From positions 2,258,407 through 2,322,406 of the forward strand of contig NZ_CP026001.1 in the NCBI RefSeq assembly GCF_003086775.1: 64,000 nucleotides of DNA. Reading direction: 5' to 3'. Position numbers and translations under genes: made by a program. Positions 3,862 to 60,685 of the stretch are shown here, one piece after another. The first letter of the stretch is position 1. The number at the start of each line of letters is the position of its first letter. Origin of the DNA: Stenotrophomonas sp. ZAC14D1_NAIMI4_1. GTDB lineage: Bacteria > Pseudomonadota > Gammaproteobacteria > Xanthomonadales > Xanthomonadaceae. Under the pieces are notes generated by a model. It did not search any database. It saw only the letters and a program-made list of their open reading frames with translations, and had not been told where the DNA came from.

Positions 3862-6102
3862 TCAGAACTCCTGCCAGTCGCCGTCACCGGCCAGTGCCGG
3901 CTGCGCCACCGGCTTGCGGACCCGCGACGGGGCCGGGCTGGCCACCGGAGCCGGCTTGCGTGCGGCAGGCATTGCGGCGACGGGGCGCGGCGCGACGGGG
4001 CTCAGGCCCGGGGTGGCCAGGCGGAAGCGGGCCACGGCCTCGCCCAGCTGCGCGGCCTGGTCTTCCATTGCACGCGCGGCGGCGGTGGCTTCCTCGACCA
4101 GCGCAGCGTTCTGCTGGGTGGTTTCGTCCATCTGCACCACGGTCTGGTTGACCTGCTCGATACCGGCCGACTGCTCCTGCGACGCGGCGGAAATCTCGGC
4201 CATGATGTCGGTGACGCGCTGCACCGAGGCGACGATTTCGCCCATCGTGCTGCCCGCCTGGTGCACCAGGCTGGAGCCTTCGGCGACCTTGCCGACCGAG
4301 TCGTCGATCAGGCCCTTGATTTCCTTCGCCGCAGCGGCGGAGCGCTGGGCGAGGGTGCGGACTTCGCTGGCGACCACGGCGAAACCACGGCCCTGCTCAC
4401 CGGCACGCGCGGCTTCCACGGCGGCATTCAGCGCCAGGATGTTGGTCTGGAAGGCGATGCCATCGATGACGCTGATGATCTCGGCGATCTTCTTCGACGA
4501 GGCTTCGATGGCCGACATGGTGGTGACCACCTGGCCGACCACGGCGCCACCCTGCGAGGCGACGCCGTGCGCGCCGATGGCCAGCTGGTTGGCCTGGCGC
4601 GCATGTTCGGCGTTCTGCTTCACGGTGGAGGTCAGTTCCTCCATCGAAGCGGCGGTTTCTTCCAGGTTGGCGGCCTGCTGTTCGGTGCGGCGCGACAGGT
4701 CGCTGTTGCCCGAGGCGATCTCGCCCGCGGCCAGGGTGATGCTGCCGGCGCTGGCCTGGATCTGGCCGACGATCTGGGTCAGCTGGGCGACGGTGGTGTT
4801 GGCATCGTCGCGCATGCGGGCGAAGACGCCGTGGAACTGGCCGTCCATGCGAGCGGTCAGGTCGCCTTCGGCAATGGCCTGCAGCAGCTGTGAGAGCTGG
4901 CCCAGGTTGCCATCGGCCACCTGCATCATCGAGTTCAGCTGTTCGATCATCACCTTGAAGTCATGGTCGAAGCGATCGGCGTCGCCGCGCTGGCTGAAGT
5001 CACCGGCGGCAGCAGCGCTGGCCAGGTGCTGGATCTGCGTGTTGATGGCCAGCAGGCTGGCCTTGGCGGCATCCATCGCCTCGTGCAGGAAGGCACGGGT
5101 GCCCGGCAGGCGCTGTGCATCCTGGGTCAGGTTGCCGGCGGCGTACTGGTTCAGTACGTCGATGGCAGCGCGGATCGAATCGAGGTGTTCGAAGATGACG
5201 GTGTTGATGCCGCCGGCCAGCTGGCCGTAGACGCCGGGGAAATCCTCGGGGATGCGATGGCTGATGTCCGGGCCTGCATGCATCTGCGCCATCAGCTGGG
5301 TCTGCTCGGAGAAGCGGCGCAGCATGGCGGTCATGTCGCTGGTGGCGGTCAGCATGCGGCCGGCTTCGTCCTTGCTGGTGGCCTGGGTGCTGACGCTCAG
5401 GTCGCCGCGGGCGACGGCCTGGATGGCGGTCAGTGCCTTGCCGAGCGGAACGGTGACCGCGCGCGAAATGACCACGGCCAGCGCAGCGGCCACCAGCGAC
5501 AGCAGCACGATGCAGCTGACGACGGCGATGATGCTGTTGCGGTGGGTGGCATTGGCGGCGTCGATCTTGCCCTGCATCTGCGTGCCGAGGAAGGCGCTCA
5601 GTGCCTTCAGTTCCTCGAAGGCCTTTCGCCGCGCGGGGCGGGACTGTTCGTCGGATACCTGCTGGGCCAGCGCGCCGTCGCCGGCGTTGGCGGCTTCGCG
5701 CAGCTTGGCGTTGGCAGCGAAGTAGGCGTCCACGCCGGCCTTCACCGGCTGGTACAGCGCGCGTTCCTTCTCGCCGGTCGGCAGGGCGGCATAGGCGGCC
5801 AGCTCCTTGTGCACGATGGCGGCGCTGTCATCCATGCGCTTGTAGTAATCGGCCACCTTTTCCGGCTGGTCCAGCATGGTCAGCAGGGCCATCTCGTAGG
5901 TGCGGAACTCGCCGAGCTGCGAACGCACTTCGCCCAGGTGCTGCACCGAGGGAATATCGTTGCTGGCCATGCTGCCCAGCTGGGTGTTGGCTTCGCTGAG
6001 GCGGACCAGGGCGAACAGCCCCAGGACCAGGGTCATCAGCGTTGTCAGGGTGAACCCCACGGCCAGCTTGCGGGCGATGGGCAGATCGTGGAACCACTTC
6101 AT
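3862..6102 (-). CDS. Methyl-accepting chemotaxis protein with CheR-docking tail
   Basis: A 746-residue classical transmembrane receptor. TM1 is near residues 10-32, a periplasmic four-helix-type ligand domain follows, TM2 ([20 protein letters not shown]) lies near 190, then HAMP, extra helical repeats and the signalling tip [18 protein letters not shown]. The last residues, DWQEF, match the xWxxF pentapeptide that recruits CheR and CheB. The start was moved from 6165 to the ATG at 6102 ([13 protein letters not shown]), which has GGAG about 10 nt upstream and gives the usual MCP N-terminus. A good sigma-28 promoter lies at 6172-6198. The ligand cannot be predicted. Confidence 0.93.
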
Positions 6103-6171
6103 GCAGGGTGCTCCAGGTGGGCAGAGGGAAACGGTCGTGCCGGTGGGGGTTCGGTGTGCCGTCAAAGCCAG

Positions 6172-6198
6172 ATAGCGGCGTGCCCTGCACGGACTTTA
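6172..6198 (-). promoter_or_regulatory. Sigma-28 (FliA) promoter for mcp
   Basis: The minus strand reads TAAAGTCC-N11-GCCGCTAT, close to the FliA consensus TAAAGTTT-N11-GCCGATAA. It lies about 70 bp upstream of the mcp start at 6102. Confidence 0.8.
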
Positions 6199-6347
6199 TG
6201 GATGGATGTCACATTCGTGTGCGTAGGGTGAAACCGCGCGAAAGCCTTGCAGGGCGGGCGCTTTCACTTGCCGGTGTGGTTGCACGGGAAACTGCCTGCG
6301 CGACAGAGATCACATTGCGTGACCCCCCACATACCGTGCAAACGAAA

Positions 6348-6371
6348 ACCGCCGCCCCTGGGGGCGGCGGT
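6348..6371 (-). terminator. Rho-independent terminator after the second cheA
   Basis: A GC-rich hairpin, ACCGCCGCCCC facing its complement GGGGCGGCGGT across a 2-nt centre, is followed on the minus strand by TTTCGTTT. It lies 25 bp past the stop of the operon's last gene. Confidence 0.8.
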
Positions 6372-6396
6372 CCGAAGTACAGCGCGGTGCGGAAGG

Positions 6397-8397
6397 TCAG
6401 GCGGCCTGCGGCACGCGCAGCGAGCGCACCAGGCCACCGATGTCGACGATCAGGGCGACGCGGCCGTCGCCAAGGATGGTGGCACCGGACACCCCGCCGA
6501 TGCGGCGGTAATTGTTCTCGATGTTCTTCACCACCACCTGCTGCTGGCCAACCAGTTCGTCCACTTCCAGGGCGATCTTCTGGCCATCGCCCTCGACCAC
6601 CACCACCAGCGATTCGCTGTTGGCGCCGCGGGCACCATAGCCGTAGTACTCGCTGAGCGAGAGGATCGGCAGGTACTCGCCGCGCACGCGCAGCACGCGG
6701 CCTTCGCCGGCCATGCTGCGGATGTCCTCGGCCTGCGGCTGCAGGGCTTCGAGCACGTAGGCCAGCGGCAGGATCAGGGTTTCGCCGGCCACCGCCACGG
6801 TCATGCCGTCGAGGATGGCCAGGGTCAGCGGCAGGCGGATCAGCGTGCGCGTACCACTGCCCAGGCTGCTCTCGATCTGCACCTCGCCACCCAGTGCCTG
6901 GATGTTGCGGCGGACCACGTCCATGCCCACGCCCCGGCCGGACAGATCGGTCACGGCATCGGCAGTGGAGAAGCCAGGCTGGAAGATCAGGTCCCAGACC
7001 TGCGAATCGGTCGGATTGTCCGGCACGGCCAAGCCGCGCTCGTGGGCCTTGGCCAGGATCTTGGTGCGGTCCAGGCCGCGACCATCGTCGCTGACTTCGA
7101 TGACGATGTGGCCGCCCTGGTGCGAGGCCGCCAGGGTGATCGTGCCAGTCTCGTCCTTGCCCGCGCCACGGCGCACGTCCGGCATTTCCAGGCCGTGGTC
7201 GATGGAGTTGCGGACCAGGTGGACCAGCGGATCGGCGATCTTCTCGATCAGGCCCTTGTCCAGTTCGGTGCCTTCGCCGACGGTGCGCAGGCGAACCTGC
7301 TTGCCGAGGCGGGTGGAAAGGTCGCGGACCAGGCGCGGGAAGCGGCGGAACACCGCATCGACCGGCAGCATGCGCACGCCGATCACCGCTTCCTGCAGGT
7401 CGCGGGTGTTGCGTTCAAGCTGGTCCAGGCCGGCGAACAGGCTTTCGGCATGCACCGGGTCCAGTGCGTGCGAGACCTGCTTGAGCATGGCCTGGGTGAT
7501 GACCAGTTCGCCGACCAGGTTGATGAGGGCGTCCACCTTGTCCACGCTGACGCGGATCGAGGTTTCGGCTTCCTGGGCGCCACCGCCATTGGCGGCCGGC
7601 GCGGCGGAGGTGGCAGCGGCCACCGGTGCAGCGGGGGTGGAAGGGGCAACAACGGGTGCAGCAGGGGCCTGGGTAGCGAGGCTCGGCGGCGCTGCCGGAC
7701 GGATGTCCAGTTCGCAGTCATCCAGCACCCAGGCAAACGTATCTTCGATCTTGCTGCGCGGCACCTTGCCGACCAGGCCCAGGTCCCACGCCAGGTGGGC
7801 CTCCAGCGGGTCGAGCTGGGCAAAGCCGGGCAGGCGCTCCATGCGCGCGGCCACCTGCAGCGAACCGAGGTGTTCCAGTTCGCGGATGATGCGCAGCGGA
7901 TCGTTGCCGCTCATGAACAGCGACGGCGCAGGGGTGAAGCCGATCTGCCAGGCTTCGGGCGTGTCGTCGACCTTGGCTTCGGCGGCAACCGGGGCGCTGG
8001 CGGCGGCCTGGCCGGACAGCACTGCTTCCAGGCGCGCCTTCACCGCAGCAACGGCGGCCGGATCAGCGGCCTGGCCATGTTCGGCTTCGCGCAGCAGGGC
8101 GCGCAGCACGTCCACCGAGGACAGCATGGCGTCGACCGCCACCGGCTCCAGCGCGCGCTTGCCGGCACGCAGCTCATCGAGCAGCGTTTCCAGCACGTGG
8201 GTCAGGCCGGCGATCGCATCGAAGCCGAAGGTGCCGGCGCCCCCCTTGATGGAGTGGGCGGCGCGGAACACCGAATTGATGATCTCCGCGTCCTGTTGCC
8301 CCGATTCCAGGGCCAGCAGGCCGGCCTCCATCGCGTCGAGGCCTTCGCGGCTCTCCTCGAAGAAGGTGGCGTGGAAGCGTTGCAGGTCCATGCTCAT
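6397..8397 (-). CDS. Second CheA-type chemotaxis histidine kinase
   Basis: A 666-residue kinase with an N-terminal HPt domain (phospho-site His in AAHSIKGGAGTFG), a variable middle region with a Pro/Ala linker, the dimerisation segment (VDKVDALINLVGELVI), the HATPase domain (HLVRNSIDHG N-box, DDGRGLD and GRGVGMDVV G-boxes) and a C-terminal CheW-like P5 domain. It lacks the FliM-like repeats of the CheA at 13235-15070. It is the last gene of motC-motD-parC-parP-STAS-cheY-cheA and ends at a clear terminator, so it is likely made with the motor and array-positioning proteins. Whether it feeds the flagellar CheY or its own neighbour is unknown. Confidence 0.93.
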   Translation of the reverse strand: MSMDLQRFHATFFEESREGLDAMEAGLLALESGQQDAEIINSVFRAAHSIKGGAGTFGFDAIAGLTHVLETLLDELRAGKRALEPVAVDAMLSSVDVLRALLREAEHGQAADPAAVAAVKARLEAVLSGQAAASAPVAAEAKVDDTPEAWQIGFTPAPSLFMSGNDPLRIIRELEHLGSLQVAARMERLPGFAQLDPLEAHLAWDLGLVGKVPRSKIEDTFAWVLDDCELDIRPAAPPSLATQAPAAPVVAPSTPAAPVAAATSAAPAANGGGAQEAETSIRVSVDKVDALINLVGELVITQAMLKQVSHALDPVHAESLFAGLDQLERNTRDLQEAVIGVRMLPVDAVFRRFPRLVRDLSTRLGKQVRLRTVGEGTELDKGLIEKIADPLVHLVRNSIDHGLEMPDVRRGAGKDETGTITLAASHQGGHIVIEVSDDGRGLDRTKILAKAHERGLAVPDNPTDSQVWDLIFQPGFSTADAVTDLSGRGVGMDVVRRNIQALGGEVQIESSLGSGTRTLIRLPLTLAILDGMTVAVAGETLILPLAYVLEALQPQAEDIRSMAGEGRVLRVRGEYLPILSLSEYYGYGARGANSESLVVVVEGDGQKIALEVDELVGQQQVVVKNIENNYRRIGGVSGATILGDGRVALIVDIGGLVRSLRVPQAA

Positions 8398-8450
8398 GGC
8401 AGAGGCAATCCGGAAACGTGGGGAAGGGGCGGTTCAGGGGTGCGGGGCGA

Positions 8451-8816
8451 TCAGCCCAGCACCTTCTGCACGGTGGCGACCAGCTGTTCGGGGTTGAACG
8501 GCTTGACCAGCCAGCCGGTGGCACCGGCGGCCTTGCCTTCGGACTTCTTGTCCGCAGCCGACTCGGTGGTCAGCATCAGCATCGGGGTGAACTTGTAGTC
8601 CGGCAGCTGGCGCAGTTCACGGATCAGGCTGATGCCATCCATGTTCGGCATGTTGACGTCGGTGACCACCGCGTTGAAACGCTGGCCCTTGGCGCGACCG
8701 AGCGCGACCGCGCCGTCTTCGGCTTCTTCGACGGCAAAACCGGCCGAGGTGAGGGCGAAGGAAACCATCTGGCGCATCGACGCCGAATCGTCCACCACCA
8801 AGATACGTGCGCTCAT
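8451..8816 (-). CDS. CheY-like single-domain response regulator
   Basis: A 121-residue receiver domain. The acidic pocket is VVDDS (D9-D10), the phospho-acceptor is D53 in VVTDVNMPNMDG, and the conserved Thr and Lys are in MLTTES and LVKPFN. Its start overlaps the STAS stop (ATGA) and it precedes a cheA, so it is the natural partner of that kinase. It resembles CheY proteins of non-canonical chemosensory operons (VDDSASMRQMV) more than the flagellar CheY at 15678-16070. Confidence 0.93.
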   Translation of the reverse strand: MSARILVVDDSASMRQMVSFALTSAGFAVEEAEDGAVALGRAKGQRFNAVVTDVNMPNMDGISLIRELRQLPDYKFTPMLMLTTESAADKKSEGKAAGATGWLVKPFNPEQLVATVQKVLG

Positions 8817-9121
8817 GCAGCGTTCTCCACAGATTTCAGGTTGTCATGGGGTACGTCCAGGCCCAGGGCCTGGGTGACGCCCAACAGGCGGGCGGCGTCA
8901 CGGAAGGTTGCAGTGCAACCGTGGAAGCCGGTGCCCAGGCCCGCCTCGCGGCGTGCCTGCACGAACGCACACAGCACCTGCACGCTTGCCGTGTGGATGC
9001 GACCGACCTGGCTTGCGTCCAGGGTCAGTTCGCCTGCTTCCGCCACGAGGGGCGAAAGGCGGTTCTTGAGCTCGGTGCTGTTCTCGATGCCGAGATCGTC
9101 ACCCAGTTCGACAGTGCTCAT
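8813..9121 (-). CDS. STAS-domain protein (anti-sigma-factor antagonist type)
   Basis: A 102-residue single STAS domain with the LTLDASQVGRIHTASVQVL core, where Thr/Ser sit at the usual phospho-site. STAS proteins of this type occur in chemosensory operons as phosphorylation-controlled binding partners. The partner kinase or anti-sigma factor is not evident here. The ATG at 9121 with GGAG 6 nt upstream is preferred over the in-frame TTG at 9136. It overlaps the next gene by 4 bp. Confidence 0.85.
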   Translation of the reverse strand: MSTVELGDDLGIENSTELKNRLSPLVAEAGELTLDASQVGRIHTASVQVLCAFVQARREAGLGTGFHGCTATFRDAARLLGVTQALGLDVPHDNLKSVENAA

Positions 9122-9195
9122 CGTTGCTCCGGACAAACGGTTCCGAGATCCATAACGGCACCCGGCAGGGGTTCTTTAGGGTTGAATCGACGCGC

Positions 9196-10551
9196 TCAAC
9201 CCAACAGCCGGGTCGCGTCGAGCAGGATCATCGGCCGCTGGCTGATGCGGGCCACGCCGCGGAACAGCTCGTTGGAGATCTGGCAGATGCGCGCGGTATC
9301 GGGAGGCTCGATCTGCGAATCGGTGAGGTTGGCCACGTCTTCGACCGCCGATACACGCAGGCCCAGGGTCTCGCCGTTCTCTTCCAGCACCACGATGCGC
9401 GTCTGCGCGTCGTCTTCGGCGGTGACCGCGCCCAGGTGGATGCCCAGGTCCATCACCGGCACCACCTGGCCACGCAGGTTCATGATGCCGAGCATGGCCG
9501 GGGCGGTGCCGCGCAGCGGCAGCAGCGGCACGGGCAGGACCACTTCCTGCACCTTCAGCAGTTCCAGCGCATAGGCCTGGGTGCCACAGCGCAGCCGCAG
9601 CCAGCGCGAGGTGCGCTCGGCGGCACGGCGGTTGTGCGGGTTCGCGCCGTGCGGCGGCTGGTGGGCCTGCGCCTGCAGTTCCTGCCAGCTGCCGGGGCGG
9701 CTGCCGGGCGGCGCGTCGAGGGCGATGCGCGGGGGCGGTGCGACCGCCGCCCGTGCGGCCGGGGCGGGCGCAGGGCGCGGCGCAACCGGCGCGATCGGTG
9801 CGGCCACGGCTGGTGCCGGTGCCGGTACCGCCTCGCCTACGGCTGCCGCTTCGAAGGCGGCCTGCAGGGCAGGGCTGTCGGTGTGCGCCAGGCGATGGCT
9901 GTCGGCGCCGTCGGTTTCGTAGATGACTTCGTCGGGCAGGTCGTCCCAGGTGGGCTTGGGGGCTGCCGGGTCGGTGGCGGGGTCGGGGGCCGCTGCGCTC
10001 GCCGGGCCCGGCCCGGCGCTACCGGTGGCATCGCCCGTTTCGTAGATGACTTCGGCCGGCAGGTCGTCCCAGGTGGGTTCGCGTTCGCGTTCGGGTGCGG
10101 CGACGGCCGCGGCTTCGAATGCGGCTTCGAGCGAGGCGTCGTCCACGGATGCGGCAGCATCGGTGTCGCCGGTCTCGTAGATGACCTCGGACGGCAGGTC
10201 GTCCCAGGTGGGTTCGCGTTCGGGTGCGGCGACGGCCGCGGCTTCGAATGCGGCCTCGAGCGAGGCGTCATCCACGGACGCGGCAACGGTGGTGTCGCCG
10301 GTTTCGTAGACGACTTCGGCCGGCAGGTCGTCCCAGGTAGGCTCGCCTTCGGGTGACGCTGCGCTCGCCGGGCACGGCCCGGCGCTACCCGGGAGGGTGT
10401 CGCCGGTTTCGTGGATCACCTCGGCCGGCAGGTCGTCCCACGTCGGCTCGCGCTCGGGCGCGGCGGCGACCGGGGGTGGCGGTGCAGCCAGGGCGATGGC
10501 TTCGCCCAGCAGCTCGTCCAGGTAGTCGTCCAGCACGCCGGGGGTGTTCAT
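9196..10551 (-). CDS. parP: ParP-like chemotaxis array scaffold: repeat linker plus C-terminal CheW domain
   Basis: This 451-residue protein begins MNTPGVLDDYLDELLGEA, carries a long low-complexity region, and ends in a CheW-like domain (about residues 300-451; LGIMNLRGQVVPVMDLGIHLG). Its position directly after a ParA-type ATPase and motD matches the parC-parP arrangement of Vibrio and Pseudomonas, where ParP ties CheA and receptors to the pole. The linker contains five copies of EPTWDDLPAEVIYETGD or close variants (from about residues 35, 70, 113, 158 and 199) and DDASLEAAFEAAAVAAP blocks; the middle copies are nearly identical in DNA. Two REP palindromes are translated within it. The start at 10551 overlaps the parC stop (ATGA). 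The ParP name rests on context and domain layout. Confidence 0.85.
   Translation of the reverse strand: MNTPGVLDDYLDELLGEAIALAAPPPPVAAAPEREPTWDDLPAEVIHETGDTLPGSAGPCPASAASPEGEPTWDDLPAEVVYETGDTTVAASVDDASLEAAFEAAAVAAPEREPTWDDLPSEVIYETGDTDAAASVDDASLEAAFEAAAVAAPEREREPTWDDLPAEVIYETGDATGSAGPGPASAAAPDPATDPAAPKPTWDDLPDEVIYETDGADSHRLAHTDSPALQAAFEAAAVGEAVPAPAPAVAAPIAPVAPRPAPAPAARAAVAPPPRIALDAPPGSRPGSWQELQAQAHQPPHGANPHNRRAAERTSRWLRLRCGTQAYALELLKVQEVVLPVPLLPLRGTAPAMLGIMNLRGQVVPVMDLGIHLGAVTAEDDAQTRIVVLEENGETLGLRVSAVEDVANLTDSQIEPPDTARICQISNELFRGVARISQRPMILLDATRLLG
10001..10022. repeat. REP palindrome inside the parP coding sequence (copy 1)
   Basis: GCCGGGCCCGGCCCGGC followed by GCTACC is the intergenic GCCGGGC-family REP (compare 13167, 13212, 26353). 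Here it is read in frame as GSAGPGPAS, about residues 177-185 of the ParP-like protein. Confidence 0.75.
10367..10388. repeat. REP palindrome inside the parP coding sequence (copy 2)
   Basis: GCCGGGCACGGCCCGGC followed by GCTACC encodes GSAGPCPAS at about residues 55-63 of the ParP-like protein. It differs from copy 1 mainly at the palindrome centre. Confidence 0.75.
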
Positions 10552-11330
10552 GCCGCCTGCTCCAATGCACGCGCGTCTTCGCCGAGGATCCAGTTCAGGG
10601 CGCGGCGATAGGCGGCCAGGCCGCGGCCCGGGTAGTCCTCGCCCACATTGGGCAGGGTCAGGCCGGCGGCGTTGCTGATGCGGGTGTCGATCGGGATCGC
10701 GTCTTCCCACACGCGGGCGCCGTGGCGGTCCTGCATGGTGCGCAGCGATTCGTTGCCGGCGCGGGTGCGGCGGTCGAACAGGGTGGGCAGGATCGAGATC
10801 GGCAGCGGACGGCGGCGCGAGCGCTCGACCATCTCGCCGGTGCGCACCATGCCGTCCAGTCCGTGCAGGGCCAGCGGCTCGGCCTGGGTGGGAATGATCA
10901 GGCGGTCGGCCGCAGCCAGTGCGTTGATCATCAGCAGGCCCAGGGTGGGCGCGCAGTCCAGCAGGATGTAGTCATGCTGGCCCTGGTGGCGGGCAAGTGC
11001 GTTCTGCAGGGCCAGGCCCAGGCCGGGCTGGTTGGCGCTGCGCCGTTCCAGCGTGGCCAGCGAAGCCTGCGCGCACACGTAGTCCAGGCCGCCGATGCTG
11101 CTGGGGTGGCTCAGTGCGGACAGCTCGGCCGGCGGTGCGCCGAACAGTTCCAGCACGCCGGCCGGCGCCGGTTCCACCGGCACGCCGAAGGCGCGGGTAA
11201 GCGAGGCGTGCGGATCCAGGTCGATCAACAGCACGCGGTGGCCCTGTGCGGCCAGGCCGCGACCGAGGGCGAGGGTGGTGGTGGTCTTGCCGACTCCACC
11301 CTTCTGGTTGGCGACTGCCCAGATGCGCAT
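10548..11330 (-). CDS. parC: ParC: ParA/Soj-family ATPase for polar localisation of chemotaxis arrays
   Basis: A 260-residue ParA-type ATPase with the deviant Walker A motif KGGVGKTTTT near the N-terminus, LLIDLDPHASLT as the A' motif and LLDCAPTLG as Walker B. It lies between motD (4-bp gap) and the CheW-domain gene (4-bp overlap). This is the neighbourhood of ParC in Vibrio and of the soj-like gene in the Pseudomonas fliA-che-mot cluster, where it directs CheA/ParP to the cell pole. There is no ParB gene or parS-like site here, so a chromosome-partition role is unlikely. Confidence 0.9.
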   Translation of the reverse strand: MRIWAVANQKGGVGKTTTTLALGRGLAAQGHRVLLIDLDPHASLTRAFGVPVEPAPAGVLELFGAPPAELSALSHPSSIGGLDYVCAQASLATLERRSANQPGLGLALQNALARHQGQHDYILLDCAPTLGLLMINALAAADRLIIPTQAEPLALHGLDGMVRTGEMVERSRRRPLPISILPTLFDRRTRAGNESLRTMQDRHGARVWEDAIPIDTRISNAAGLTLPNVGEDYPGRGLAAYRRALNWILGEDARALEQAA

Positions 11331-13121: not shown

Positions 13122-13166
13122 GACACCGGTAGATCGTGTACAGACGGTAGTCACAGTTTTCGGGTC

Positions 13167-13228
13167 GCCGGGCATGGCCCGGCGCTACCGCGCAGGGCCA
13201 TCTCGGGTAGCGCCGGGCCATGCCCGGC
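13167..13228. repeat. REP inverted pair between cheA and motC
   Basis: GCCGGGCATGGCCCGGC-GCTACC (13167-13189) and GGTAGC-GCCGGGCCATGCCCGGC (13206-13228) form a head-to-head pair. They separate the cheA stop (13235) from the motC promoter and could end the upstream transcript. Confidence 0.8.
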
Positions 13229-13234
13229 GGGGGT

Positions 13235-15070
13235 TCAGCGCAGGCCGTCCACGTCCAGGATCAGGGCCATGCGACCATCGCCGATCAAGGTTGCACCGGC
13301 GTAGCCGCGCAGGCCGCGCAGCGCCTTGGGCAGCGGCTTGATGACCACTTCCTCGCGGCCGCGCACCTGGTCCACCACCAGGCCGAAGCGCGCTTCACCG
13401 GCCTGCAGCACCACGATGGTCAGCAGGGGGGACGCTGCAGGCGTCACATCCAGCCACTGGCGCAGATCGACCAGCGGCAGAGTGTGCGAGCGGCGGTCCA
13501 GCACGGCGCGGCCATCGAACCAGCCCAGCGAGGTGCGTGGGGCGTGCAGCACCTCCATCACGCGCGCCAGCGGCAGCGCATAGATGTCTTCGCCGGCCTG
13601 CACCAGCAGCGTCGGCAGGATGGCCAGGGTGAGTGGCACGCGGATCAGGAAGCGGCTGCCACGGCCTAGTTCCGACTGGATCTGGATCTGGCCGCTCAGT
13701 TCGCGGATACGAGACTGCACCACGTCCATGCCCACGCCGCGGCCGGAAATATCGGTGACCTGCTGCTTGGTCGAGAAGCCGGGCAGGAACACCAGGTGCA
13801 GGCACTCCTCGCTGCTCAGGCGGGCGGCGGCTTCCGGATCGATCAGGCCCTTCTCGCGTGCCTTGGCGCGCAGCTTTTCCGGATCGATGCCGGCGCCGTC
13901 GTCCTGCACTTCGATGCTGACGTAGTCGCCTTCCTGCTGCGCCGACAGGCGCACATGGCCCATCCGCGGCTTGCCCTGGGCTTCGCGCAGGTCGGGCATT
14001 TCCACGCCGTGGTCGATGGCGTTGCGCACCAGGTGCACCAGCGGGTCGGCCAGCGCTTCGACCAGGTTGCGGTCCAGTTCGGTCTCGGCGCCGATCAGCT
14101 CCAGGTCCACTTCCTTCTGCAGCGAACGGGCGACGTCGCGGGCCACCTTCGGGAAGCGCGAGAACACCTTGCCCACCGGCTGCATGCGGGTGCGCATGAC
14201 CGCCGACTGCAGGCGGGCGGTGGCGATGTCCAGCGTCGACACCGCCCGATCCAGCTCTTCGTCGCGCAGGCGGGTGCGCAGGGTCTTCAGCCGGTTCCGT
14301 GACAGCACCAGTTCGCCGATCAGGTTGACGATCGCATCCAGGCGCTTGGTGTCCACGCGCACGGTGTGTTCGGCTTCGGCCACCGGCTTGTTCGCGGCCG
14401 GCTTGGCGGCCGCGCGCGGGGCGGGTGCCGGGGCCGGTGCGGCGGCCACCGGTGCGGCGGCCACGGGCTTGGCGCCCGGGACGGCGCCACCATGCAGCTG
14501 GTCGAGCAGGGCTTCGAACTCGTCTTCGCTGATCAGGCCATCATCGGCCTTCTTCGGCGGCGCGACGGCAGTCGGTGCGCTGCTGCCATGCAGCTGGTCG
14601 AGCAGGGCCTCGAACTCATCGTCGGTGATCAGGTCGCTGCCGGCAGCGGCCGGGGTGGCGGCTGCGGCGGCGCTCGATGCGGGGCTCGCTCCGCCATGCA
14701 CGTCGAACTGGGCGATCAGTTCCGGCGGGGCGTAGCCGGGTTCAGTGCCGGCGGACACCGCATCGAGCATCGACTGCAGGTAATCCAGCGACTGCTGGGC
14801 GGCATCGAAGTGATGGGCCTGCAGCACGGCCTGGCCGGCACGCGCCGCGCCCAGCGCTTCTTCGGCGGCATGGCACAGCTCGACCATGGCGGTGATGCCG
14901 AGGAAGCCGGCGCCGCCCTTCAGCGTGTGGTAGCCGCGGAAGACCGCATTGAGCTGGTCGTTGTCCTGGGGTGCCTGTTCCAGCGACACCAGCTGTTCGC
15001 CCAGGCGATCCAGGATTTCCTGCGCCTCGATGATGAAATCGGCAGTGATGTCGTCGGCAACAGCGCTCAT
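13235..15070 (-). CDS. cheA: Chemotaxis histidine kinase CheA
   Basis: A 611-residue flagellar CheA. The HPt domain has H48 in GYHTLKGGAGFLG. A long linker follows with two near-identical peptides, ITDDEFEALLDQLHG (148-162) and ISEDEFEALLDQLHG (180-194), instead of a classical P2 domain. Then come the dimerisation region (VDTKRLDAIVNLIGELVLS), the HATPase domain (HLVRNAIDHG, DDGAGID, GRGVGMDVV) and a CheW-like P5 domain at the C-terminus. It autophosphorylates and passes phosphate to CheY. It follows cheZ with a 2-bp gap in flhB-flhA-flhF-fleN-fliA-cheY-cheZ-cheA. Confidence 0.96.
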   Translation of the reverse strand: MSAVADDITADFIIEAQEILDRLGEQLVSLEQAPQDNDQLNAVFRGYHTLKGGAGFLGITAMVELCHAAEEALGAARAGQAVLQAHHFDAAQQSLDYLQSMLDAVSAGTEPGYAPPELIAQFDVHGGASPASSAAAAATPAAAGSDLITDDEFEALLDQLHGSSAPTAVAPPKKADDGLISEDEFEALLDQLHGGAVPGAKPVAAAPVAAAPAPAPAPRAAAKPAANKPVAEAEHTVRVDTKRLDAIVNLIGELVLSRNRLKTLRTRLRDEELDRAVSTLDIATARLQSAVMRTRMQPVGKVFSRFPKVARDVARSLQKEVDLELIGAETELDRNLVEALADPLVHLVRNAIDHGVEMPDLREAQGKPRMGHVRLSAQQEGDYVSIEVQDDGAGIDPEKLRAKAREKGLIDPEAAARLSSEECLHLVFLPGFSTKQQVTDISGRGVGMDVVQSRIRELSGQIQIQSELGRGSRFLIRVPLTLAILPTLLVQAGEDIYALPLARVMEVLHAPRTSLGWFDGRAVLDRRSHTLPLVDLRQWLDVTPAASPLLTIVVLQAGEARFGLVVDQVRGREEVVIKPLPKALRGLRGYAGATLIGDGRMALILDVDGLR

Positions 15071-27584: not shown

Positions 27585-27916
27585 CGCAGTCTCCGGATCC
27601 GCTCGCTCGGGCTGACCACGTCGGTCAGGCGCACGCCGAAGCGGTCGTTGATCACCACCACTTCGCCATGGGCGATCAGGGTGCCGTTGACGAACACATC
27701 CAGCGACTCACCGGCACCGCGTTCCAGTTCCACCACCGAGCCCTGGTTGAGCTGCAGCAGGTTGCGGATCGGCAGGCGGGCGCGGCCGACTTCCAGCGAC
27801 AGGGTCACCGGCACGTCGAGGATCACGTCAAGGTTCAGGTCCGGACCGATCGACTCGTCGGCCTGCAGGCTGCTGAACTGGGCCGGGGTCGGTTCGAGGG
27901 CGTCGATATCGTTCAT
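27581..27916 (-). CDS. fliN: Flagellar motor switch protein FliN
   Basis: A 111-residue switch protein with the SpoA domain (LDVILDVPVTLSLEVGRARL, IRNLLQLNQGSVVEL, ERIRRLR at the end). It builds the C-ring base. The frame stays open far upstream, but the ATG at 27916 overlapping the fliM stop (ATGA) gives the normal length. Confidence 0.96.
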   Translation of the reverse strand: MNDIDALEPTPAQFSSLQADESIGPDLNLDVILDVPVTLSLEVGRARLPIRNLLQLNQGSVVELERGAGESLDVFVNGTLIAHGEVVVINDRFGVRLTDVVSPSERIRRLR

Positions 27917-28917
27917 TGCGGGTCTTCCTGGATGACGGGTACGCGCGGGCGGGTGCCCGGCGGATGGGTAGCGGTGATCTTCACGGCGTTCATGCCGTTG
28001 GCGATGCCGAATTCGCCGGTGAACACGGGGATGTTCTCCACGCACAGCGGCACCTGCGGGTTCAGCTCGATCGGCAGGATGTCGCCCACCTTCAGCCGGG
28101 TCAGGTCGCGCAGGGTCATGCGCTTGCTGGCCAGCACGCTGGACAGGGTCACTTCGGCGATGTTGAGCTGCTCGCGCAGCATCACGCCCCAGCTGGCGTC
28201 GCGGTCGTTGCGGTCGCTCTGGATGCCGGCGTCGAGCAGTTCGCGGATCGGCTCGAGCATCGAGTACGGCAGGGTGACGTGGATGTCGCCGCCACCGCCA
28301 TCGAGTTCGACGTGCAGGCGGCACACCACCACGTACTCGCGCGGCGTCACGATGTTGGCGAAGTGCGGGTTGATTTCCGAATTGATGTATTCGAAATCCA
28401 CCTCCATCACCGGCGCCCACGCCTCGCGCAGGTCGGCGAAGGTCTGCTTCAGCAGCAGCTGGATCACCCGCATTTCGGTGGCGGTGAATTCGCGGCCTTC
28501 GATGCGGGTGGGGTAGCGCCCGTCACCACCGAAGAAGTTGTCGACGATGGCGAACACCAGGGTCGGCTCGAACACGATCAGGCCGGTGCCACGCAGCGGC
28601 TTGAAGCGGATCAGGTTCAGGTTGGTCGGCACATACAGCGAGTGCATGTAGTCGTTGAACTTGATCAGCTCGATGCCGCGCACCGAGAGTTCTGCCGAGC
28701 GGCGGATCAGGTTGAACAGGCCGATCCGCCACAGGCGCGCGAAGCGCTCGTGGACCATTTCCAGGGTCGGCATGCGACCGCGGATGATGCGGTCCTGGCT
28801 GGCGAAATCGTACGAACGGGCTTCGCCACTGGGCGCCTCCGGCTCGGTTTCGACCGCGCCACTGTCCACGCCATGGAGCAGGGCATCGATCTCATCCTGG
28901 GACAGCAGGTCATTCAT
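27913..28917 (-). CDS. fliM: Flagellar motor switch protein FliM
   Basis: A 334-residue protein. The N-terminal MNDLLSQDEIDALLHGVD is the CheY-P binding peptide; the middle CheC-like domain contacts FliG and the C-terminal SpoA domain pairs with FliN. The peptide LSQDEIDALLHG closely resembles two peptides in the CheA linker (see 14489-14629). Overlaps fliN by 4 bp; 12 bp after fliL. Confidence 0.97.
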   Translation of the reverse strand: MNDLLSQDEIDALLHGVDSGAVETEPEAPSGEARSYDFASQDRIIRGRMPTLEMVHERFARLWRIGLFNLIRRSAELSVRGIELIKFNDYMHSLYVPTNLNLIRFKPLRGTGLIVFEPTLVFAIVDNFFGGDGRYPTRIEGREFTATEMRVIQLLLKQTFADLREAWAPVMEVDFEYINSEINPHFANIVTPREYVVVCRLHVELDGGGGDIHVTLPYSMLEPIRELLDAGIQSDRNDRDASWGVMLREQLNIAEVTLSSVLASKRMTLRDLTRLKVGDILPIELNPQVPLCVENIPVFTGEFGIANGMNAVKITATHPPGTRPRVPVIQEDPQ

Positions 28918-60496: not shown

Positions 60497-60525
60497 GGGC
60501 GTTGTGTCGCTTGCGATGCATCCTG

Positions 60526-60685
60526 TAGGGTCGACCGTTGGTCGACCGCTCTATTGGTAGGGTCGACTGTTAGTCGACCGCCCGATTGGTAGGGTCGACT
60601 GTTAGTCGACCGCTCGATTGGTAGGGTCGACTGTTAGTCGACCGCTCTATTGGTAGGGTCGACTGTTAGTCGACCGCTCTACAAG
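60526..60685. repeat. Five-unit tandem array of 32-bp palindromic REP elements
   Basis: Units start at 60526, 60558, 60590, 60622 and 60654. Each holds GTAGGGTCGAC-TGTTA-GTCGACC with a short C/T/A-rich tail; the first unit has CGTTG at the centre and the last ends in CTACAAGG. It lies between divergent cheV and flgA, ending 10 bp before the flgA sigma-54 promoter. Confidence 0.92.

Follow-up and report, generated by a model that had tools for sequence, protein, structure and literature searches.

A selectively conserved peptide in the linker of a Stenotrophomonas ParP-like protein forms a tandem array of variable copy number and may act as a docking array

Results

The DNA analysed here, referred to as the window, is a stretch of 64,000 nucleotides from Stenotrophomonas sp. 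ZAC14D1_NAIMI4_1 (contig NZ_CP026001.1, positions 2,258,407 to 2,322,406). It contains a flagellar che cluster in which cheY-, cheZ-, cheA-, motC-, motD- and parC-like genes are followed by a parP-like gene encoding 451 amino acids, including the first methionine (Table 1). The mechanically called open reading frame is longer on the 5′ side (9196-10710); we preferred the ATG at 10551 on two grounds, its overlap with the stop of parC, by which the two genes share 4 bases, and its fit to the N-termini of the relatives. The protein is built of an N-terminal LDDYLDELL segment, an Ala/Pro-rich, repeat-bearing linker that reads as the long proline-rich linker of the ParP type, and a C-terminal CheW-like (AIF-type) domain, which matches PF01584 (CheW; E 1.8e-30, residues 317-449 of the translation counted without the first Met); six CheW-type sequences in the PDB match the protein. 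The preliminary description of this DNA had called the protein ParP-like, and the cheY-to-parC gene order, the overlap with parC and the C-terminal CheW domain support this identity. The N-terminal segment also has a looser form, YLDxLL, in class-level ParP-like proteins (one family locus, L181, was taken in the wrong frame in this comparison), and it may be the putative ParC-interaction segment of ParP. Directly after parP lies a second chemotaxis set (3862-9136, minus strand), which encodes an MCP with GDWQEF as its last residues, a CheA-type kinase of 666 aa, a response regulator and a protein with a STAS domain.

Table 1. Features of the parP locus and related peptides in the window
Feature	Coordinates	Strand	Basis or remark
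parP-like gene	9196..10551	minus	451 aa incl. first Met; frame, PF01584, relatives' N-termini
parC-like ParA-family ATPase gene	10548..11330	minus	directly upstream of parP; PF13614 E 1.1e-38
LDDYLDELL N-terminal segment	10507..10533	minus	kind common to ParP-like proteins of the family
W-type unit 1, EPTWDDLPAEVIHETGD	10399..10449	minus	protein search and sequence reading
In-frame GTAG-type REP, units 1-2, read as GSAGPCPA	10365..10389	minus	0 mismatches to pattern
W-type unit 2, EPTWDDLPAEVVYETGD (..AEVVYETGD)	10294..10344	minus	protein search and sequence reading
SLEAAFEAAA, second half of repeated unit, between units 2 and 3	10234..10263	minus	direct-repeat comparison
W-type unit 3, EPTWDDLPSEVIYETGD (..SEVIYETGD)	10165..10215	minus	protein search and sequence reading
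SLEAAFEAAA, second half of repeated unit, between units 3 and 4	10105..10134	minus	direct-repeat comparison
W-type unit 4, EPTWDDLPAEVIYETGD	10030..10080	minus	sole exact copy of the string in the preliminary description
In-frame GTAG-type REP, units 4-5, read as GSAGPGPA	9999..10023	minus	0 mismatches to pattern
W-type unit 5 (terminal), KPTWDDLPDEVIYETDG	9907..9957	minus	protein search, codon alignment
ALQAAFEAAA after unit 5	9841..9870	minus	strong purifying selection too
CheA linker peptide LISEDEFEALLDQLHG	14489..14536	minus	P1-P3 linker, pattern and profile
CheA linker peptide LITDDEFEALLDQLHG	14585..14632	minus	P1-P3 linker, pattern and profile
FliM N-terminus LLSQDEIDALLHGVDS	28861..28908	minus	third-best profile match outside CheA

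The linker holds an array of five units of a WDDLP-type peptide, about 180 residues from first to last, and all five copies that had been described were located where they had been placed. In protein order, the unit starts are 105, 129, 135 and 123 nt apart, and the middle of the array is a 129-nt direct repeat whose two copies are 91% identical (TRF period 129, score 491). The repeated unit exceeds the peptide of the preliminary description, since DDASLEAAFEAAA occurs in two of the inter-unit spacers and translated REP elements in the other two. Searching the complete genome at the protein level returned five matches at E<=10, all of them inside parP, and a degenerate DNA pattern (1 mismatch) found five sites in the genome and none in the reversed control; the five-unit array is not due to chance. 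The earlier suggestion of a recent expansion was borne out in part: the 129-nt pair arose fairly recently, but the 176 units compared across the genus are 47% divergent at synonymous sites. We regard PTWDDLPDEVIYETD, SLEAAFEAAA and DEFEALLDQLHG as candidate docking peptides.

The REP elements, of the GTAG type and in frame, had been absent from the preliminary description; both carry the GTAG end and the palindromic arms. With the palindrome GGTAGCGCCGGGCCNNGCCCGGCGA as the pattern, 348 sites were found in the genome (171 + 177, up to 3 mismatches) and none in the reversed control, and the genome has four matches over the cut-off to Y1-type transposases as a class. The 81 parP genes from the genus contain 34 REP sites when up to 4 mismatches are allowed, spread over 18 genes; the sites are not independent, since duplications copy the elements along, and five codon-shuffled sets contained none in any set. 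All 34 lie in the orientation of the gene, and 33 share a single frame, translated as GSAGPxPA-like peptides, while the site of L109, with 4 mismatches, lies in another frame. Both elements of the window gene depart from the extragenic norm in lying inside a reading frame. Direct repeats and in-frame REP elements, together, shape the array. An Rfam search with the two elements gave only sub-threshold matches to CRISPR repeats, which we put down to chance arising from the palindrome. Elsewhere in the window, two opposed GTAG REPs 16 bases apart form an intergenic pair in the gap between motC and cheA (13165-13189, minus; 13206-13230, plus), and about five (4.9) tandem copies of a 32-base unit with GTCGAC motifs and a GTAG start, 95% alike, are found at 60525-60681.

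We then compared the units across the genus, where matches were obtained in 84 of 91 genomes. Of these, 81 were analysed; the other three (G149, G199 and G222), whose matches lay at the ends of contigs, were left out. The 81 genomes represent one per species, so that the comparison of copy number is between species: zero units were counted in 6 genomes, one in 29, two in 7, three in 11, four in 25 and five in 3, and the counts are lower bounds where parP is cut at a contig end or its start was not located (e.g. L065, L110). The predicted variation in copy number is thus found, over a range of 0-5 units. For the 176 units, which came from 71 of the 81 genomes and were collected with a pattern that fixes some positions, pN/pS was 0.12, and it was 0.075 for the non-terminal copies. 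When 41 genomes with an AIF identity of at least 0.92 were aligned by codons without reference to the motif, and only windows filled in more than 70% of pairs were used, the terminal-unit window PTWDDLPDEVIYET had a pN of 0.002 and a pS of 0.359. In the same alignment, pN was 0.015 and 0.066 in the two LQAAFE windows, 0.06-0.34 in the remaining linker windows and 0.00-0.055 in the 19 windows of the CheW (AIF) region, so that the conservation of the terminal unit equals that of the folded domain. The copy nearest to the AIF domain is also the one that is retained in those single-copy proteins that we looked at. The WDDLP unit is a short peptide fixed by selection within a fast-evolving Ala/Pro linker, and, judged by this selection, the W-type peptide is very probably functional. 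These values uphold the earlier view of a short selected peptide as opposed to a passive spacer; with pN near zero, the motif does not drift at the protein level.

In the relatives, all 35 matches to the W peptide fell within the coordinates of parP, in 10 of 21 genomes, and among the relatives compared the WDDLP peptide is confined to one genus, whereas relatives of ParC are found across the class (83 of 229 genomes); a general ParC-binding site is therefore unlikely. Other tandem peptides occupy the corresponding linker in ParPs of the family. Among 101 loci, a ParP of at least 150 aa was available in 97, a CheA linker in 83 and both in 80; 18 loci whose stretch did not include the whole CheA linker (four belonging to genus g18), three without a ParP found and L209 (a ParP fragment of <150 aa) were left out, and seven of the ParPs dropped in this way were repeat-positive. 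By self-alignment against shuffles, 41 of the 97 ParPs were repeat-positive, with linkers of <25 aa (L219, L255) set as negative without a test. In 39 of the 41, at least two copies of one type were present, and in shuffled linkers none; since the patterns were derived from the same linkers (96 scanned, L255 being outside the motif-type count), this is a description and not a test. The types are F (EFEALLD-like: DEFEALLD, ELDAAFD, LEAVFEQ and the like), D (LAExDxDPxF-like: LLAELDSDPLF, FLAEMDADPAF, LLDELMNDPAL and the like) and W (the WDDLP-type unit of the window). The ParP linkers of the family differ repeatedly in carrying tandem peptides from a small set of types. Of 27 frames after ParC from outside the family, 24 looked ParP-like and none looked repetitive by reading; the self-alignment test was positive in 0 of 14 (the linker of L219 was too short to test). 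In the outgroup loci L198, L203 and L206, the frame after parC is a plain CheW-like protein in two cases and a frame of 31 aa in one.

The F type of ParP is the EFEALLD peptide that is repeated in the P1-P3 linker of CheA, of which at least two copies were present in all 16 CheA linkers that were readable among 18 from outside the family. The pattern used for this peptide is loose and admits a small number of questionable sites, among them one in L222; units of the W type fall outside it. In 8 of the 80 genomes, CheA has no copy of the peptide. All 8 have a repeat-positive ParP, compared to 26 of the 72 others (Fisher 0.0006, uncorrected for descent), and at least two ParP copies of the F type are found in 7 of the 8 against 9 of the 72, the eighth genome (L140) having the D type in ParP. 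Restricting the comparison to the family gave 8/8 against 26/58 (p 0.005, Fisher, likewise uncorrected), and counting by genus and state, with genus codes assigned by hand, gave 5/5 against 7/38, or 5/5 against 7/24 within the family (p 0.007). Two graded series of CheA/ParP copies were seen, one running from 2/0 (L252) through 2/1 (L237) and 1/2 (L238) to 1/3 (L257-L259), and the other from 1/1 (L228) through 1/3 (L158) to 0/4 (L143) and 0/3 (L253). A quick ParC+CheA tree, which came with a long-branch warning, placed five changes for the CheA loss and eleven for the ParP repeats; independent pairs agreed in 0-2 cases with the loss as the first trait, or in 2-4 with the repeats as the first trait, and opposed in none, which is not significant, five losses being too few to reach significance. 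The loss of the CheA peptide may be paired with tandem repeats in ParP, which would stand in for the docking peptide of CheA. In the genome of the window, CheA retains two copies of the EFEALLD peptide, and so the W array is an addition and not a replacement.

Two further expectations were not borne out. Recent copying from CheA to ParP left no sign, the within-genome DNA identity being above that to the CheA of other genomes in 1 of 7 cases, equal in 1 and below in 5, and a trade-off between the lengths of the CheA linker and ParP, which gave a rho of -0.41 over all 80 genomes, weakened to -0.14 (p 0.26) when only the family, with 66 genomes, was considered. L140, whose CheA has no linker peptide, carries a similar in-frame palindrome-like stretch in its CheA and ParP linkers (at 2151 and 6517, plus strand; CTCCTCCC...GGGAGGAG and the like), which is another type of repeat.

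A profile was built from 80 linker peptides of CheAs outside the genus and used to rank 91,725 16-mers of the window. The N-terminus of the protein at 27916-28917, which is FliM (PF02154, E 2.2e-72), ranked 5th, behind CheA's own two peptides and two unrelated 16-mers, and a relaxed CheA pattern had five sites in 83,860 residues, namely two in CheA, one in FliM and two others. The N-terminus of FliM binds CheY, and its resemblance to the CheA F peptide suggests the latter as a candidate CheY docking peptide. The C-terminus of CheZ, considered as another relative, scored -7 on the profile and was rejected. No P2 or other CheY-binding Pfam domain was found in the CheA of the window at E<=1, nor in any of ten other CheAs (eight outgroups, L143 and L157) at E<=0.1; more than half of CheAs are described as lacking P2, which HMMER detects poorly (PMC10782961, consulted in part). 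The main text of this survey of CheA architecture contains none of the terms FliM, LID, ParP or 'linear motif'. A weak match to SHOCT (PF09851; 19.8 bits, cut-off 27) overlies one of the two EFEALLD peptides in the linker region of the window CheA at 14485-14640 (minus), and matches below the cut-off were likewise obtained with 7 of 8 outgroup CheA linkers (best 23 bits); the CheA linkers of L224, L143 and L157 had no match to SHOCT. A PDB search with the CheA linker returned no match. The hydrophobic moment gave no support for amphipathic helices. Fifteen peptides were compared with shuffles, namely 13 candidate motifs taken from ParP, CheA and FliM, the N-terminus of ParP and, as a control, a REP; in 14 of them the moment did not exceed that of the shuffles at p 0.05, the sole exception being a unit of L232 (p 0.042).

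Discussion

On balance, we favour the interpretation that the W repeats form a docking array of variable valency for a component of the polar chemosensory machinery. The peptides would bind a component of this assembly, and ParP, placed in the core unit of the array according to the excerpted Vibrio work (PMC5706961, PMC7534058), would display docking sites that replace or supplement those of CheA, with the copy number setting the valency. The multivalent docking proposed in the preliminary description therefore remains the best reading of the comparative evidence, but as a substitute for the CheA peptide it does not hold for the lineage of the window, where the W array may serve something else while CheA keeps its two copies. 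As to the ligand of the W peptide, for which the preliminary description had proposed ParC, CheA or receptors, we think that one of the soluble chemotaxis proteins or a different domain of ParP is likelier than ParC or the receptors.

Several other explanations have to be weighed against this one. The peptide could be functionless, the linker being a passive spacer that lengthened through slippage of the DNA and the insertion of REPs; the REP elements and the 129-nt direct repeat do exist, and intragenic REPs are known from other genes in the portions available of PMC3733652 and PMC2613905, but most of the neighbouring linker drifts while the units combine a pN near zero with a high pS, and the units are alike in protein though synonymously diverged, so that the codon data contradict this account and make it very improbable. 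A terminal W unit that folds back onto the AIF domain as an intramolecular latch, regulating AIF binding and leaving the extra units spare, would fit the near fixation of the AIF-proximal copy and its retention in the single-copy proteins looked at; it leaves unexplained the expansion to 3-5 copies that are themselves well conserved (non-terminal pN/pS 0.075), and we consider it decidedly unlikely. Receptor pentapeptides serve as tethers for CheR and CheB, and TWDDL might be an internal mimic of such a pentapeptide, given that the adjoining MCP ends in DWQEF and that the W and acidic residues line up. These tethers, however, are C-terminal and end in F, and the conserved part of the unit runs on through YET, which leaves this idea scarcely credible.

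Two explanations take the CheA peptide as their starting point. The F type might be the core of the CheA LID, which would bind the AIF domain of ParP, so that copies in the linker bind other ParPs and build a homotypic polar mesh, with the W units perhaps contacting the same or another face. As the excerpted Vibrio reports have it, the LID is restricted to systems with ParC/ParP and has AIF as its binding partner (PMC5706961, PMC7534058), and our peptide lies between P1 and P3 in CheAs of a ParC/ParP cluster; against this, its equation with LID is assumed from position and description, and a ParP that bound its own linker would compete with CheA. We consider this rather unlikely. Alternatively, the F type would be a FliM-like CheY-binding peptide serving CheAs without P2, supplied in trans by the ParP arrays, with the W unit as a further docking site. 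The absence of P2 at the thresholds given, the rank of FliM (3rd without CheA's own two) and the one site in FliM among the five of the relaxed pattern argue for it, as does the share of P2-less CheAs, over half in the part of PMC10782961 consulted; the two unrelated 16-mers that outscore FliM, the low score of CheZ, the SHOCT matches, the poor detection of P2 by HMMER noted in the same source, and the reported binding of the Vibrio CheA LID to AIF (PMC5706961, PMC7534058, in part) speak against it, and it seems unlikely. In its most extended form, this idea would have the repeated FliM-like P1-P3 peptides dock response regulators in the P2-less CheAs of this type of cluster, the function moving copy by copy in the Xanthomonadaceae from the kinase to tandem arrays in ParP, with the five units of the window, partly spaced by REPs, as one lineage's variable-valency version with a peptide of its own; we hold this to be quite unlikely as a whole. 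We have rated docking of response regulators lower because the CheA peptides also resemble SHOCT.

If the docking array that we favour is real, polar chemosensory arrays would possess a docking layer of short repeated peptides, the number of which evolves quickly and which can shift between kinase and scaffold. This would bear on how partners are recruited by CheAs without P2, over half of all CheAs according to the portion of PMC10782961 consulted, and would make the LID-ParP interaction testable at the level of peptides. Arrays of 0-6 copies would offer a natural series for experiments on valency, and mobile palindromic elements would have been turned into coding spacers of a signalling scaffold. 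Neither ParP linker repeats nor FliM-like peptides in CheA appear among the open-licence literature matches listed, as far as their excerpts go.

The comparison with known systems shows both likenesses and differences. In the excerpted accounts, Vibrio ParP is an adaptor tying arrays to ParC (PMC5706961), and the protein of the window resembles it in its partner parC, its N-terminal segment, its long proline-rich linker and its C-terminal CheW-like domain; unlike for the window ParP, these accounts mention no repeated peptides (PMC5706961, PMC7534058), and the whole word 'repeat' has no occurrence in the main text of PMC5706961. The acidic cytoplasmic region of FimV/HubP likewise gives a polar protein an extended acidic part, in a different protein from ParP and likened here by description (PMC12918733, in part). 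The EFEALLD peptide is like LID in its position, preceding P3 in the linker of those CheAs that occur with ParC/ParP, whereas the Vibrio LID, as excerpted, lies between P2 and P3 (PMC5706961, PMC7534058) and no P2 was found in the CheAs scanned here; the likeness is one of position and description, not of sequence. FliM (DEIDALL) and CheA (DEFEALL) are similar in sequence, but the FliM peptide is single and N-terminal, whereas the F peptide of CheA and ParP is internal and repeated, and SHOCT is resembled in part by the CheA linker peptides, with every match short of the Pfam cut-off. As for the spacers, the parP elements are like the GTAG/SMAG REPs described in the portions consulted of PMC3733652 and PMC2613905 in their GTAG end, palindrome and hundreds of genome copies, although the SMAG consensus printed there for K279a differs in its stem. 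The same sources report REPs inside some other genes and SMAGs tandemly repeated along with flanking DNA; unlike these known intragenic REPs, the elements in parP space putative docking units and do so nearly always in one frame (33/34).
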